Shown: one piece after another, positions 56,538 through 63,157 of the stretch
Position numbering within the stretch: the first letter of the stretch is position 1
How the letters are laid out: the number at the start of each line of letters is the position of its first letter
DNA from: Microlunatus panaciterrae
GTDB taxonomy: Bacteria > Actinomycetota > Actinomycetes > Propionibacteriales > Propionibacteriaceae
Length of the DNA stretch: 64,000 bases
Assembly: GCF_016907535.1 (NCBI RefSeq)
Contig: NZ_JAFBCF010000001.1
Span: 2,356,001 to 2,420,000, forward strand
Direction: 5' to 3'
Made by a program: the position numbers and the translations under genes
The notes under the pieces: generated by a model
The model's database searches: none
The model's input: only the letters and a program-made list of their open reading frames with translations
Told to the model about the DNA's origin: nothing

Positions 56538-57038
56538 TCAGCCGACCATCCCGTGCAGGTATGGGGCGAGGCGGTCGAGGGTGATATTCCACCCCTCGGT
56601 CATGCCGGTGGCGAGCCACTCGCGGACGCGATCATCGGTCAGCCGGTCGGCGAAGGCGACTTGTAACACCATCTCGGTGGCACCGTTCATCTCGTCCAGG
56701 GTGATCGTGACGAGGGGTGCGTCATCGAGGTTGCTGGGGTCGAGCTGCGGCCAGCCGTCGATGGCGCCGAAGCTGAACACCAGCTTCTCCGGCGGAACGA
56801 TCTCGTGGTAGATCCCGCCTGTCATGTACGACCTGTTTTCGTCCTCGATCATGTGAAGGCGCCAGCAGCCGCCTACTCGCAGGTCCACGGTGGTGGCGAT
56901 GCCCTGGCTCGGCATCTCGCCTGCGAACCACTGCGCCAGCTGATCCGGGTCGGTCCAGGCCTGGAAGACGAGCTCCCGGGGGGCGTCCAGCCGTCGGGTG
57001 ATGGTGAAGCTGCGTTCCACCTGGGTTGCTGCAGTCAT
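56538..57038 (-). CDS. SRPBCC/AHSA1-family protein
   Basis: A 166-residue START-like protein. SFTITRRLDAPRELVFQAWTDPDQLAQWF is the family start, then VGGCWRLHM, GIYHEIVPPEKLVFSFG and TITLDEMNGATEMVLQVAF, ending WNITLDRLAPYL. These bind hydrophobic ligands in a helix-grip cavity; many are co-encoded with an ArsR regulator, as here. The ATG overlaps the ArsR stop (ATGA). Confidence 0.9.
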   Translation of the reverse strand: MTAATQVERSFTITRRLDAPRELVFQAWTDPDQLAQWFAGEMPSQGIATTVDLRVGGCWRLHMIEDENRSYMTGGIYHEIVPPEKLVFSFGAIDGWPQLDPSNLDDAPLVTITLDEMNGATEMVLQVAFADRLTDDRVREWLATGMTEGWNITLDRLAPYLHGMVG

Positions 57039-57451
57039 GTTGATCTCTCCTTCGTCGGTCGGTTCTTCCGGTCGTGCTGTTGAGTGCTGCCGGGCTGGTT
57101 CGGCTGAGCAGCGCCGGCGGGCGTTCGTCGGCCGCCCCCCAGGGTCTTGAGGTGCTCCTCGAGGCGGTCGAGGCGGCCGTCGAAGAACTCGCGGTAGCTC
57201 GCCAGCCAGGCATCGACGTCATGCAGCGGTGTCGGGTCGAGCCGGCAGGGTCGCCACTGGGCATCGCGGCCCTTGACCACCAGGCCGGCGTTCTGCAGCA
57301 CCTTCAGGTGTCGGGACACCGCCGGCAGGCTGATGGGATGGGGTGCCGCCAGCTCGTTCACCGTCGACTCGCCCCTCGCCAGCTGCGCCAGGATGGCCCG
57401 CCGGGTGGGGTCGGCCAGCGCTGCAAAGATCGCGCTGAGCGGATCCGGCAT
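57035..57451 (-). CDS. ArsR-family HTH regulator
   Basis: A 138-residue regulator. ALADPTRRAILAQLARGESTVNELAAPHPISLPAVSRHLKVLQNAGLVVKGRDAQWRPCRLDP is the winged HTH, without the metal-binding Cys pair of arsenic or cadmium sensors. A long Pro/Gln/Arg-rich tail follows. It overlaps the AHSA1-family gene (ATGA), the usual arrangement of this two-gene unit. A TTAATTAA palindrome about 18-25 bases upstream of its ATG may be its own operator or the promoter -10 area. Confidence 0.9.
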   Translation of the reverse strand: MPDPLSAIFAALADPTRRAILAQLARGESTVNELAAPHPISLPAVSRHLKVLQNAGLVVKGRDAQWRPCRLDPTPLHDVDAWLASYREFFDGRLDRLEEHLKTLGGGRRTPAGAAQPNQPGSTQQHDRKNRPTKERST

Positions 57452-57478: not shown

Positions 57479-57737
57479 AACACGTCAAATACACCACGAA
57501 CACGGTGTCTTGTCAACACTCGCCTCCGGGTCTGGTCGGCGCCGTGATCGGCTCCTGGGTGTCGGGGTAGAGTCAAGGTCTCCTTCGGGAGCGTTGTCCG
57601 TTCTCCCCGGTGAAGGAGCAGACCATCCTCAGCGCCACACCTCGTAACCGTCCTGGACCCACCCCAGGATGGTGCGATCAGGATCACTCGGACGATGTCA
57701 CGCGCGCTGTGGCTCATCGGCGGACGGTACGGCGGCG

Positions 57738-60700
57738 GTGACCGTTCCTCTGTGGCTGCGCAGCATCCAGCGGCGGCCGCACACTGCGGTGCTGCTCTTT
57801 CTGCTGTCGTCGGTCGTGGTGATGACGTCGATCGTGGGCCCGTTGCTGGTGCGCGCCGTTCATCAGTCGGCTCTGACCGGGGCTCTGGAGACCGCGGGAT
57901 TGGACGGCACATCGATCTCGGTGTCCGGCGACGTCTCAGCCGATGAGCCCTGGCAGCCCGCCAGGGATCTGGCCGTCGGCGTGCTCGCCGCCGGCCAGGA
58001 GGATGGGTCGGAGCAGCTATGGCACCGGCCAGCGGTGTTGATCAAGTCGACCACGATCATCATCTGGAAGTCTGCTTCGGACGATGGCGAGCGGAATGCG
58101 CTGGTCAACGCCCTCGACGACGGCTGTGACGACTATGTGATCACCTCCGGTCGCTGCCCAGAGGGTGTCGGCCAGGCCATGATCAGTAGCGTCGACGCTG
58201 AGCGCTCGAAGATCAAGACTGGTTCGGTCATCTCGTTCGCTCTGGCCCGGGCTCCGGTGACGAAGGTCAAGATCGTCGGCATCTACGATCCCGTCACCTC
58301 GACCGCCGCTGATCTCACCCGCCCGGGCAGCACCAGCGGCGTGCTGGCGGGAGTCCAGAGCGATCCGGTGGTGATGACCGCCATCCAGTCAGAGAACCTG
58401 CCGCTCCCGGTGAAGATCACCGCCCGGATGACGGCGCTCCCCGGGATGACCATCGCCGACGAGCCGGCGGTGCAGACCTCGGTCGAGCAGATCAAGATGT
58501 CAGCCAACGCCCAGGATCGGGTGATCGCTATCGGCACCGACCTGCCGGAGCTGCTGGACGGGGTCGACGACCAGGCGAGGTTGGCGCAGGTGCTCGTCCT
58601 GGTCACCGACGTCCAGGCACTGTTTCTCGCCGTCTTTGCCCTCGCGGTGGTGCTGCAGCGGATCGGGCGGGCACGCGCCGCGGAGTGGAGCGTGGGGCGC
58701 CTCCGTGGCGTGACCCGGCGGCGCTGGCTGAGCTCGGTCTACGTCGAACCGGCGGCTGCCCTGTTACTGGGGCTACCGCTCGGCTTCGCCGCAGGAGTTG
58801 CGGTCGCACGGCTGGGCGTGACCCTCACCCTGCGTCCGGGCACGCCGCTGGAGATCTGGCGTTGGCCGGTGCTCGCGTCTGCCGGCGTGGCCACAGTGAT
58901 CGCCTTCGGCGCCCTGGTTGCGGTCAGCCTCCGCAGCGTACGTCAACCGCTGGCAGATCTCGTCCAGCAGCAGGCCGAGAGCCGGCGGCTGTCCACGCTC
59001 GGCGCCGTGGTCCACTCTGGGGTGTTCCTGCTTGCCGCCGTCACCATCTATCAACTGGTGACGGGCGGCCTACTCACCTCGGGCGGCCCCCAGCTGGGGC
59101 TGCTCGCCCCCGGGCTGTTTGCGCTCGCCGCTGCCCTGGTGACGGTGCGCGTGGCCGTCCTGGTGGTCCGCCGGAGCACCACCCGACCACCCCGCAGCCT
59201 GGCCGCGCTGGTGGTCGGCCGGCATGCGGCCCGGATGCAATCGGCCCTGAACCCGGCCATGATCATCGCGGTCGGGGTGGCGCTGGCCGTGTTCGCGACG
59301 CAGGTCTTCGCTCTGTCGGTCCGCAACCAGGCTCTGCGGGCCGATGCCGTCACCGGAGCCAGCACGGTGCTCACTGTTTCTGTACCACCCGACGTCGATC
59401 TGCTTGCGGCCGTCCGCGCCGCCGACCCCACCGGTCGGCAGGCGATGGCCGTCAAGGAGACTCCGGTCGAGGGCTTCAACGGCATCTCCCGGATCGTCGC
59501 CGTCGACACCCCTCGCCTGGAGGCGGTCTCGAGCTGGTCTCCCGAGTGGTCTGGGGTGGCAGACCTCACCCGAGCGCTCCGGGGCCGCACGACCCCGCCG
59601 ATCACCCTGCAGGGTAGCCGGGTTCAGGTCGACCTGGCCGGGGTGCGGGTGCTTCCGCAGCCGCCCGCCGACCCCACCAGTGCGCCGGCGAACGCCCCAG
59701 TGCAGCCACCGGCGCTGGTGCTGACCGTGGAGGGCAAGGGCCACTGGCAGACCGTCAACCTGGGCCCGATCAAGGGGCCTGAGAGCTCGCGCAGCAGGCA
59801 GCTGAGCGCCGAACTTCCATGCGTGCAGGGTTGCCGACTGGTGTCCCTCGGCCTGCTGGCCGGGAAGAACGCACCCTATAAGGCGTGGTTCACGGTGGCC
59901 GGCATCGCCACCGACAAGCAACCGATGGGGGACTCGGCAACCTGGCTGACGACCGGCGGGCGCTGGCGATCGCAGTCGGCCAACGACACCCTGCCCAAGC
60001 CGGTGTCGATGGCCATACCCAGCGCCACTGCCGAGGGGTTGGCGATCGAGGCCTTCGACACCCAGGGTGCCAACCTGACCTCGGTCTCACCCTCCGACAC
60101 AGCGGACCCACTCCCGGCGGTCCTGGGCCCGACCACCTCCGCCGAACCGGTGCCGGGCAGTGCCGGCGCGGGGTTCGGGACCGGGCTGGACGGTCAGCAG
60201 CAGAAGCTCGCCATCGTCGGGCGGGCGGCGGTCCTGCCCCGTTCGCTTGACGAGGGGGTGCTGGTGGACCTCGCCAACGCGCAGGGTCTGTCCGACCCCT
60301 CCCTGAGCCGGACCAGCAACGAGGTGTGGCTGGCGCCGGACGCCGCCCCCAGCATCGCAAAACGGCTGGCGGCTCAGGGGATCCGGGTGCAGACCAGGGA
60401 GCTGCTGAGCGACACCCGCGACGACCTGCAGCAACAGGCGAGCACCCGGGGCGCCGCGGTGGCGGTCATCGTCGGCTTCGCAGCTCTGCTGCTGACGATG
60501 CTCGCCCTGGTCGCGGCCCGCTGGGCCGACGCCGGTAAACGAGGTGAGGACTGGCGGGCGCTGCGTGAGGGCGGCGTGAGCCCCCGCAGGCTCCGCCACC
60601 TCGTCCGGGTGGAGATCGCCGTTCCCGCCGTGCTGGGCGTCCTGGTCGGGATGCTCAGCGGCGCCGTTGCTGCCCGGATCGCGGGGGCACGGCTCCCGCT

Positions 60701-60848
60701 GGTGGACCGGACGGAGCCTGGACCGCCGCTGAGTCTGCACCTGTCCTGGCCGCCTATCCTGCTGCTGGGCCTCGGTACTGTGCTGGTCATCATGGTGATC
60801 GCCCAGGTCGGAGCCATGGCCGAGACCCGATCGAAGGAGGGCCGGTGA
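57738..60848 (+). CDS. FtsX-like ABC transporter permease (1036 aa)
   Basis: A long permease. An N-terminal helix (PHTAVLLFLLSSVVVMTSIVGPLLV) is followed by an extracellular domain, then a helix cluster at about residues 290-340 (VLVLVTDVQALFLAVFALAVVLQRI) to 470, a second large external domain (residues ~560-900), and a last cluster (AVAVIVGFAALLLTMLALVAARWAD, AVLGVLVGMLSGAVAARIAG, LLLGLGTVLVIMVIAQVGAMA). This is the two-FtsX-domain layout of MacB/LolC-like permeases. The GTG at 57738 is the likely start because it opens the N-terminal helix; an in-frame ATG at 57669 is an alternative. It overlaps the first ATPase gene by GTGA. Its substrate is unknown. Confidence 0.85.
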   Translation: MTVPLWLRSIQRRPHTAVLLFLLSSVVVMTSIVGPLLVRAVHQSALTGALETAGLDGTSISVSGDVSADEPWQPARDLAVGVLAAGQEDGSEQLWHRPAVLIKSTTIIIWKSASDDGERNALVNALDDGCDDYVITSGRCPEGVGQAMISSVDAERSKIKTGSVISFALARAPVTKVKIVGIYDPVTSTAADLTRPGSTSGVLAGVQSDPVVMTAIQSENLPLPVKITARMTALPGMTIADEPAVQTSVEQIKMSANAQDRVIAIGTDLPELLDGVDDQARLAQVLVLVTDVQALFLAVFALAVVLQRIGRARAAEWSVGRLRGVTRRRWLSSVYVEPAAALLLGLPLGFAAGVAVARLGVTLTLRPGTPLEIWRWPVLASAGVATVIAFGALVAVSLRSVRQPLADLVQQQAESRRLSTLGAVVHSGVFLLAAVTIYQLVTGGLLTSGGPQLGLLAPGLFALAAALVTVRVAVLVVRRSTTRPPRSLAALVVGRHAARMQSALNPAMIIAVGVALAVFATQVFALSVRNQALRADAVTGASTVLTVSVPPDVDLLAAVRAADPTGRQAMAVKETPVEGFNGISRIVAVDTPRLEAVSSWSPEWSGVADLTRALRGRTTPPITLQGSRVQVDLAGVRVLPQPPADPTSAPANAPVQPPALVLTVEGKGHWQTVNLGPIKGPESSRSRQLSAELPCVQGCRLVSLGLLAGKNAPYKAWFTVAGIATDKQPMGDSATWLTTGGRWRSQSANDTLPKPVSMAIPSATAEGLAIEAFDTQGANLTSVSPSDTADPLPAVLGPTTSAEPVPGSAGAGFGTGLDGQQQKLAIVGRAAVLPRSLDEGVLVDLANAQGLSDPSLSRTSNEVWLAPDAAPSIAKRLAAQGIRVQTRELLSDTRDDLQQQASTRGAAVAVIVGFAALLLTMLALVAARWADAGKRGEDWRALREGGVSPRRLRHLVRVEIAVPAVLGVLVGMLSGAVAARIAGARLPLVDRTEPGPPLSLHLSWPPILLLGLGTVLVIMVIAQVGAMAETRSKEGR

Positions 60849-61690
60849 GCACCGGAGCGGCGATCCGCACAGTGGGTGTGGTGCACGTTTTCCGGGTGGC
60901 CGGTACGGACGTGGCGGCCCTCCGCGGCGTCGACCTGTCGGTCGCCCCCGGCGAGCGGGTTGCGCTGCTGGGGCCCTCCGGTTCGGGCAAGTCGACGCTG
61001 CTGAGCGTGGTGGCCGGCCTGCGCAGGCCCTCGGCAGGGGCGGTGCTGGTCGACGGCGACGACATCGCCCGCTTTTCGGAGTCGCAGCTCTACGACTACC
61101 GGACGCGTAGCCTCGGGCTGATGATGCAGGGGACGGTGTCCAACCTGCTGCCCTACGCCAGCCCACGCGAGAACGTCGCCTTTGTCGCCGGCAGGACCCG
61201 CAAGGGTCGGCGCGCTCAGAGTACGAGCTCGGTGGCCCTCGAGGCTGCGGGACTGGCCGACGAGCGTCGTCCGGTCGCCCGCCTCGGCCGCGCCGACCAA
61301 CAGGCCACCGCTCTCGCCGTCGCCATGACCGGCGACCCGCGACTGCTGCTCGTCGACGAACCCACCAGCCAGCTGGATGACGATGCCCGGGAGAGCCTGC
61401 TGGACACCCTCGTCCAGGCGACCGCCGCCGCCGGCACGACGCTGCTGATGGTCACCCACGACGAGAACGTCGCCCACCGGATGCAGCGGATGGTCCGGAT
61501 GCGCGACGGCCGGGTCGGTGCCGAGGGGCAGCGGCACGAGCAGTACGCGGTGATCGGCGCGGACGGATCGGTGCAGCTGCCGGAGGAGCTGCTGTTGGCC
61601 TGGCCGGCCGGCTCCACTGTGGCCGTCGAGGCCGCCTCGGCCGACGAGATCACCATCAAACGCCGTCCACCGGCCGAGGAGACGCAGTGA
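60845..61690 (+). CDS. ABC ATPase with canonical Walker A/B but degenerate signature motif
   Basis: A 281-residue nucleotide-binding subunit of MacB/LolD type. Walker A LLGPSGSGKST (K49), Q-loop MMQGT, Walker B LLLVDEPTS (D171, E172) and switch His VTHDE are intact. The signature region reads LGRADQQATALAVAM (from L147), whereas functional subunits have LSGGQxQRVAIARAL, so the serine and glycines that contact the partner's ATP are lost. A 70-residue extra C-terminus follows. It overlaps both neighbours by GTGA. In a heterodimer with the next subunit only one composite site would work. Confidence 0.92.
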   Translation: MSTGAAIRTVGVVHVFRVAGTDVAALRGVDLSVAPGERVALLGPSGSGKSTLLSVVAGLRRPSAGAVLVDGDDIARFSESQLYDYRTRSLGLMMQGTVSNLLPYASPRENVAFVAGRTRKGRRAQSTSSVALEAAGLADERRPVARLGRADQQATALAVAMTGDPRLLLVDEPTSQLDDDARESLLDTLVQATAAAGTTLLMVTHDENVAHRMQRMVRMRDGRVGAEGQRHEQYAVIGADGSVQLPEELLLAWPAGSTVAVEAASADEITIKRRPPAEETQ

Positions 61691-62334
61691 CCCATTCCGC
61701 AGACACCCGATCGACGGGACTGGTCGTCCGCGAGCTGGTGGTCCGAGACGGTTCCAGGGACATCGCGCGCGGTCTGACGCTGGACGTCCCGCCCGGTCAC
61801 CGCGCAGCGGTCACCGGCCCGTCGAGCGCCGACGTCACGGCTGTCCTGGCGACTCTCGCCGGACTACGCGCCCCGGCCACCGGTTCGATCATGATCGACG
61901 AGAGTCCGGTCGGCCTGGCCCCGCCGCCGGACCGGGTGGGCTATCTCAGTCAAGATCATCGACTGATCGGCACCCTGACCGCGGTGGAGAACCTGCTGGT
62001 GACCATGATCGCGGGCGGCGAACCGGCCAACCGGTCGACAGCGCTGCGGGCCGAAGAACAGCTCCAAGCCCTCGCGCTCGCGCCGGCGACCTGGCACAAC
62101 CTGGTCGAGCAACTGTCCGGTGGCCAGCAGCAACGGGTGGCGCTGGGGCGGGCACTCGTTCTCCGGCCGCGGCTGCTGGTGCTGGACCATCCGACCAGCG
62201 AGCTCGACCCGGACACCGTCGAGCTGGTGGACGGGGTGTTACACGAGGTCACAGCGCAGGGAGTCTCGTGCGTCCTTGCCAGCGACGACGAGACCGTGCT
62301 CGGCTCCTGTGCCGACCGACTGGAGCTGGTCTGA
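61687..62334 (+). CDS. ABC ATPase with degenerate Walker A/B but canonical signature motif
   Basis: A 215-residue nucleotide-binding subunit, the complement of its neighbour. The Walker A position reads GPSSADVTAV (V50 where Lys belongs), Walker B LLVLDHPTSELD has His168 instead of Glu, and the switch segment LASDDE lacks His. The signature LSGGQQQRVALGRAL (L143-) and Q-loop region YLSQDHRL are good. Alone it should not hydrolyse ATP, but its signature can complete the site of the preceding subunit. It overlaps that gene by GTGA. Confidence 0.92.
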   Translation: MTHSADTRSTGLVVRELVVRDGSRDIARGLTLDVPPGHRAAVTGPSSADVTAVLATLAGLRAPATGSIMIDESPVGLAPPPDRVGYLSQDHRLIGTLTAVENLLVTMIAGGEPANRSTALRAEEQLQALALAPATWHNLVEQLSGGQQQRVALGRALVLRPRLLVLDHPTSELDPDTVELVDGVLHEVTAQGVSCVLASDDETVLGSCADRLELV

Positions 62335-62389: not shown

Positions 62390-63157
62390 ATGCTGCGGAC
62401 ACGCCTTGCCGCATCGGTGCTCGCTCTCGCGCTCGGCGCCACTCTCGTTGGCGGGAGCGCGGCGCTGCCTGCCGCGGCCGACCCGCCCGTGGTGCAGCAG
62501 GCAGTGTTGATCAAGGACAAGTCGCCGTACACCTTCAGCTACTACGAGCACATCGACCACATCGGACAAGGTGACCTGGTCTGCTACTACGGTGCCAACC
62601 CTGACGGGTGTGCGAAGTACCCACCGAACCGAGGCAAGGTGCGGTACTCGGTCAAGATGTACCGGCTCAAGGAGCGCGAGAAGCGCTACGACTACTACTT
62701 CGTCGACGTCACGGCCAACACCTACAAGCGCAAGGGTGACGGCGACAAGGGGCGGATGTCGATCACCATCGATCCCACCTCGAAGGTCAACATGACCTCC
62801 AACATCTACTCCAAGAAGACGCTCAAGGACGACTGCCACACCTATCCGCTGAACATCGGGCTGTCGATGGGCCCGGTCGGTGTCGGCTCGACCGTTGCTC
62901 AGTTCTCCACCTGCGACAAGGCTCAGCTGCACACCACGCGGCTGGCCAGCAACGCTGTGCGCTATGACATCTACAGCCTGAACCGGTTCCGCACCTGGTC
63001 GGTGCAGAAGTGGGTGCGGGTGGCCAGGGGCGCCAAGCCGAGCTTCAAGGTGACCGTTGCGTGGCGGGCCGACAACTGCACGGTGCTGCGCAGATCGCTC
63101 AAGGCCTACGCGAACGTCAAGACCAAGACCAAGGTGATCAAGATCAGCGCTGCCTAA
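62390..63157 (+). CDS. Secreted basic protein of unknown family
   Basis: A 255-residue exported protein. The signal peptide (about 1-31) has [21 protein letters not shown] and ends near LPAAADPP. The mature part is rich in Lys, Tyr and Thr ([54 protein letters not shown]) and has five Cys: two near residues 59 and 67, then one each near 150, 179 and 228. It looks all-beta; I cannot assign a family. The ATG at 62390 was chosen because TACAGT lies seven bases before it; an in-frame ATG at 62360 is the alternative. It overlaps the convergent P-type ATPase gene by 14 bases. Confidence 0.75.

Follow-up and report, generated by a model that had tools for sequence, protein, structure and literature searches.

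A predicted one-site ABC ATPase heterodimer beneath a two-half FtsX-type permease in Microlunatus panaciterrae

Three overlapping genes on the forward strand of the 64,000-nucleotide stretch of Microlunatus panaciterrae DNA analysed here (the window) encode an FtsX-type permease (57738..60848), an ABC ATPase with intact catalytic residues (ABC1, 60845..61690) and a second ABC ATPase that is a predicted pseudo-ATPase (ABC2, 61687..62334). The permease lies upstream of ABC1 and overlaps it by four bases (60845-60848), as the original prediction described, and ABC1 and ABC2 share a further four (61687-61690). The permease reading frame opens at an ATG at 57669; since the match to relatives begins at residue 15-23 of this frame, the GTG at 57738 is the likely start. 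Pfam places the permease in FtsX and both ATPases in ABC_tran, a family with at least 84 matches listed in the source genome, which is a single contig of 4,068,014 bases.

The permease scored 40.6 bits against the Pfam FtsX model PF02687 (cut-off 25.5), matching in two stretches of which the better is 934-1045 in ORF numbering. Its hydropathy profile has 10 strong segments, counted with overlaps merged and with a weak segment at 187-205 left out, and two large loops spanning roughly 68-301 and 554-922 (ORF numbering; ~234 and ~369 residues), placed by hydropathy after helix 1 and helix 7. This is the layout described for YbbP, whose 10 transmembrane helices and two large periplasmic domains are set out in the cryoEM section of PMC12646458, and a 17-row permease profile compared with solved structures also ranked YbbP first (9ge6, E 1.6e-6), followed by PsdB, MacB, YtrF and LolC. 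The 10 hydrophobic segments and two large loops uphold the proposal that a single permease with two FtsX halves could seat both ATPases. In Type VII systems of the YbbAP kind the periplasmic domains have Porter and Sabre folds; an AlphaFold model of the permease built from 11 distant rows had a mean pLDDT of 40.8 and was set aside as unusable. At least 13 related loci carry two permease frames next to the ATPases, each above 500 bits (L065, L066, L074, L077, L080-L082, L096, L098, L099, L105, L111 and L133).

Both ATPase frames are intact at the positions first reported, and a script check of residues confirmed the motif states assigned to K49, D171/E172, V50 and H168. ABC1 has the Walker A motif GPSGSGKST (K49), the Walker B motif LLLVDEP (D171/E172) and VTHD with the switch histidine (His205), and its signature reads LGRADQQ. 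ABC2 has an intact signature, LSGGQQQR, and has lost the Walker A lysine (GPSSADVTA, Lys to Val50), the Walker B glutamate (LLVLDHP, Glu to His168) and the switch histidine (ASDD, His to Asp); the residue before Val50 is Asp where relatives have Gly. In an ABC dimer the Walker motifs of one cassette face the signature of its partner across each bound ATP, and under this rule the motif states predict one complete composite site, formed by the ABC1 Walker motifs and the ABC2 signature. The operon thus appears to carry the degenerate-site pattern, in which one site is canonical and the other combines an altered signature with altered Walker residues on opposite subunits. The reciprocal site was, however, said to lack everything, and this goes too far, as ABC2 retains the aspartate of Walker B (Asp167), a glutamine in the Q-loop position (Gln89) and its SELD D-loop.

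The best NCBIfam match of ABC1 is LolD, at a score below the model cut-off. Its C-terminal tail of about 55 residues (61535-61687) resembles an AbrB/MazE-type hairpin (GADGSVQLPEELLLAWPAGSTVAVE). Pfam MazE_antitoxin gave a weak match (13 bits, cut-off 24.7) in three of six tails tried and none in the window tail, and the rough pattern DGx[VILA]x[LV] occurs in 85 of 113 ABC1 tails.

Relatives were sought by searching with the permease. As a single query it had matches in 61 of the 147 order-level genomes sampled (E <= 1e-10) and in 6 of 20 from the genus (E <= 1e-8). A 17-permease profile, at E <= 1e-15, matched at least 9 of 197 genomes in the family (three of them partial, 56-68 bits), at least 40 of 296 sampled in the class and at least 18 of 296 sampled in the phylum, these counts being lower bounds as two to four candidates were scored per genome. 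The three-gene unit is a member of a family that occurs in Actinomycetota genomes. A scan of named organisms with the ABC1 alignment yielded, among 80 loci from the matches listed, mostly generic LolD-like ATPases, with L174 the only locus among those matches whose permease exceeded 100 bits against the family profile. Permease identity to the window is 21-27% in every sampled row except L031 and L032, where it is 63%.

Stretches were taken around most permease matches and their ATPases classified with profiles for ABC1 and ABC2, which divide them into two distinct classes rather than copies of one ATPase. From 120 loci this gave 103 readable ABC1/ABC2 pairs; of the 17 dropped, 15 yielded at most one of the two ATPases within the stretch and 2 had a truncated ABC2. 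L118, with an ABC2 frame missing its N-terminal part and a broken permease frame, was left out of the tree and the count. Pairing joined the best ABC1 and the best ABC2 of each stretch and did not require adjacency; at L126 ABC2 is on the other strand.

Across the 103 pairs, ABC1 always retains the lysine, the Asp-Glu pair and the switch histidine (103 each) and has SGG in only 45, while the corresponding counts for ABC2 are 99, 101, 97 and 98. Both subunits are fully canonical in 40 pairs, the ABC1 signature alone is altered in 52 (mostly LTPG, also LTRG, LTMG, LTAG, LSPG, LAPG and MSAG), and an altered ABC1 signature is joined by loss of an ABC2 catalytic residue in 6. The remaining 5 go the other way, with ABC1 SGG intact and the ABC2 signature alone altered (LSAG in L220, L221, L222 and L225, ISIG in L228); they are distant members, from a remote part of the phylum, and they argue against a one-way trend. 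Together these counts describe a graded decay, with the window operon apparently at its extreme end. Loss of ABC2 catalytic residues was found in 6 of 58 pairs with a non-SGG ABC1 versus 0 of 45 with SGG, but the expectation that both degeneracies generally co-occur did not hold up: 52 of the 58 non-SGG operons keep all ABC2 catalytic residues, which indicates no tight coupling between the two decays.

Homologues with canonical motifs in both subunits, which the original prediction had named as evidence against itself, do exist to the letter, in 40 of 103 pairs and even within the genus (L068 and L131, genomes G042 and G416, placed in another branch of the tree). They are nevertheless distant, at the 21-27% permease identity given above, and they mark the asymmetry as derived rather than false. 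With L068 and L131 canonical, it is a property of neither the genus nor the family.

Of the six doubly altered pairs, four belong to one genus. The window, L031 and L032 share GPSSADVTA and the loss of the switch histidine, the Walker B glutamate being lost only in the window ABC2. The ABC2 of L090 (permease 22% identical) has no recognisable P-loop, has Gln for the glutamate and Asp for the switch histidine, and is paired with an ABC1 whose signature is LRPGSRQ. In L094 (ABC1 LPPGQLQ) and L112 (ABC1 LAGGEQQ) ABC2 has lost the switch histidine alone, to Asn in both. A 90-pair tree from which the motif columns had been left out required at least four lineages of ABC2 loss and three signature changes; an independent-pairs sign test of their co-occurrence was not significant (median p 0.5), with too few events. 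A 37-row tree kept the window, L031 and L032 apart from L090 and rejected a single clade (p-AU 0.021), a test for which the group was picked after the first tree had been seen and in which both branches are long, that of the window, L031 and L032 measuring 1.35-1.47 changes per column. Catalytic loss fell on ABC2 in four of four lineages, a one-sided probability of 0.06 if the two subunits were equally prone, and this is no more than suggestive.

Several observations bear on whether ABC2 still has a function. Pairwise dN/dS (Nei-Gojobori) among the window, L031 and L032 lay at 0.33-0.39 in ABC2, 0.28-0.39 in the permease and 0.15-0.23 in ABC1, with synonymous sites partly saturated, so that ABC2 is under purifying selection similar to that on the permease. 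GPSSADVTA is identical in the three species even though the ABC2 proteins of L031 and L032 are just 67-70% identical to that of the window; this, and the loss of catalytic residues in 6 of 103 ABC2 proteins versus 0 of 103 ABC1 proteins, suggests that the motif loss is more than chance. The signature helix and D-loop of ABC2 are also identical across the three, and the stretches common to all three species include TGPSSADVTAVLA (one residue differs), HRLIGTLTAVEN and PATWHNLVEQLSGGQQQRVAL. An AlphaFold model of ABC2 (mean pLDDT 91.4) matched YbbA of YbbAP-TesA best in Foldseek (9ge8, E 3.9e-19), then LolD, MJ0796 and MacB. This fold was to be expected, because the input alignment consisted of LolD-like proteins and favoured it, and the prediction is best read as indicating that the ABC2 sequence contains nothing that breaks a YbbA/LolD-like cassette.

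Our preferred reading, to which we give a probability of about 0.7, is that the operon encodes a YbbAP-like Type VII machine, akin to MacB and LolCDE, with one two-half FtsX permease, an ABC1/ABC2 heterodimer and one composite ATP site. The heterodimer would sit beneath the two FtsX halves, with ATP bound and hydrolysed only where the ABC1 Walker motifs meet the ABC2 signature. A single ATP, held by ABC1 and capped by the ABC2 signature, would clamp the dimer; the periplasmic stalk of the permease would close, and hydrolysis by ABC1 would release the cassettes and reopen it. ABC2 would act as a pseudo-ATPase that donates its signature, holds the second coupling helix and passes on force while itself binding no nucleotide. 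Solely by analogy with YbbAP, the substrate may be a hydrophobic envelope substance moved or extracted at the membrane surface. The heterodimer, the loss of nucleotide from the second site, the cycle and this role in the envelope are inferences that go beyond the motif states, gene order and overlaps, purifying selection, graded decay and confident ABC2 fold set out above. For this operon there is good support for one intact composite site, and the pattern is found again in L031 and L032 and, on a different branch of the tree, in L090; the central one-site inference is likely right here, whereas its generality was overstated at the outset.

One alternative is that an ABC1 homodimer works on the permease and that ABC2 is vestigial or regulatory. 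ABC1 is indeed better conserved than ABC2 among the three congeners (84-87% versus 67-76% identity), and L036 and L040 have a permease and an ABC1 (LTPG) without an ABC2 in the stretch around the locus, but each of those two genomes has one ABC2 match elsewhere. As a homodimer ABC1, with LGRADQQ, would offer a standard signature at neither site, and ABC2 has kept LSGGQQQR under selection similar to that on the permease, all of which makes this arrangement improbable. Neutral motif loss in a decaying operon would fit the long branch of the three species and the fact that the catalytic glutamate is lost only in the window ABC2 and retained in L031 and L032. Against this stand ABC1 catalytic residues intact in every pair, open and overlapping reading frames, and a dN/dS far under 1 for each of the three genes in every pairwise comparison of the three species (synonymous sites partly saturated); on the dN/dS values and the intact overlapping frames we reject decay as a very remote prospect.

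Another alternative keeps ATP on both subunits: as many heterodimeric exporters do, the degenerate site would hold a non-hydrolysed nucleotide that matters for gating. The retention of Asp167, Gln89 and the D-loop in ABC2 is compatible with such binding, a regulatory role is described as common for degenerate sites in PMC7756269, and two nucleotides would be the natural reading for the 52 relatives in which only the signature is altered. For the window operon we nonetheless think it unlikely, given a P-loop with Val for Lys preceded by Asp, the retention of the whole GPSSADVTA motif in three species, and the absence of any recognisable P-loop in L090 ABC2.

Among characterised systems YbbAP-TesA is one of the closest, being the best match for both the permease profile (9ge6) and the ABC2 fold (9ge8), and it likewise has one permease with 10 helices and two large periplasmic domains served by separate LolD-like ATPases. 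It uses two copies of one ATPase, in a 2:1:1 complex with TesA according to the cryoEM section of PMC12646458, whereas the window operon has two different ATPases and one degenerate site. The BceAB-type systems likewise have a single 10-helix permease made of two FtsX-like halves, according to PMC5985334 and PMC11466899, and differ in that BceB has one extracellular domain. The Bacillus subtilis Type VII systems are shown with two copies of one ATPase in PMC11466899, where RbsA and NupO, Type II importers of the same species, are described with a second cassette that lacks the Walker A lysine and has a non-canonical signature; those cassettes are fused and serve importers, unlike the separate ATPases on an FtsX permease seen here. 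The best reading of the mechanism is that the machine would work like yeast Pdr5, an ABCG-type exporter and the nearest mechanistic parallel, on an unrelated membrane fold. According to PMC7756269, every motif of the Pdr5 degenerate site is changed (Walker A Lys to Cys, Glu to Asn, His to Tyr, signature LNVEQ), and its other site is canonical; the window operon has Lys to Val, Glu to His, His to Asp and signature LGRAD. Pdr5 is one polypeptide with a different transmembrane fold, where the window operon has separate subunits, and the FtsX-type permease does not have the Type IV/V exporter fold of Pdr5, TM287/288 and TAP. In BceAB, unlike the window operon, the two BceA partners are identical to each other.

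Work on degenerate-site ABC transporters has dealt with Type IV/V exporters and fused importers. No Type VII system carrying such a site was found in the portions of PMC5985334, PMC8277102 and PMC11627006 available, and neither such a system nor this operon was recognised by title or abstract in a mainly open-access literature, which leaves absence unproven. A one-site mechanotransmission machine would test whether one ATP per cycle suffices for MacB/Lol/Ybb-type movement, and the natural series of symmetric, signature-altered and one-site operons makes the role of the second site testable by comparing homologues, beyond mutants alone. More tentatively, and with slightly less than even confidence, the operon may belong to a widespread actinobacterial Type VII branch that is constitutively heterodimeric and has here become a strict one-site engine, ABC2 being a permanently nucleotide-free signature donor and a lever on the second half of a pseudosymmetric permease. 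Its living relatives would keep every step between a symmetric two-site state and the one-site state, in the order ABC1 signature, then ABC2 Walker A and switch histidine, then catalytic glutamate.

Four neighbouring proteins run against Pfam included no TesA-like protein. Downstream of ABC2, 62390-63157 encodes a protein with a signal-like N-terminus and no Pfam match, and on the reverse strand at 56538-57451, divergent from the three-gene operon, lie an AHSA1-domain protein and an ArsR-family regulator. In an all-against-all BLAST of the ORFs around the loci, neighbours fell mostly into sets confined to one genus (f2/g13) and otherwise into very broad linked sets; the ArsR-like regulator was the only window neighbour matched at another locus, L112.
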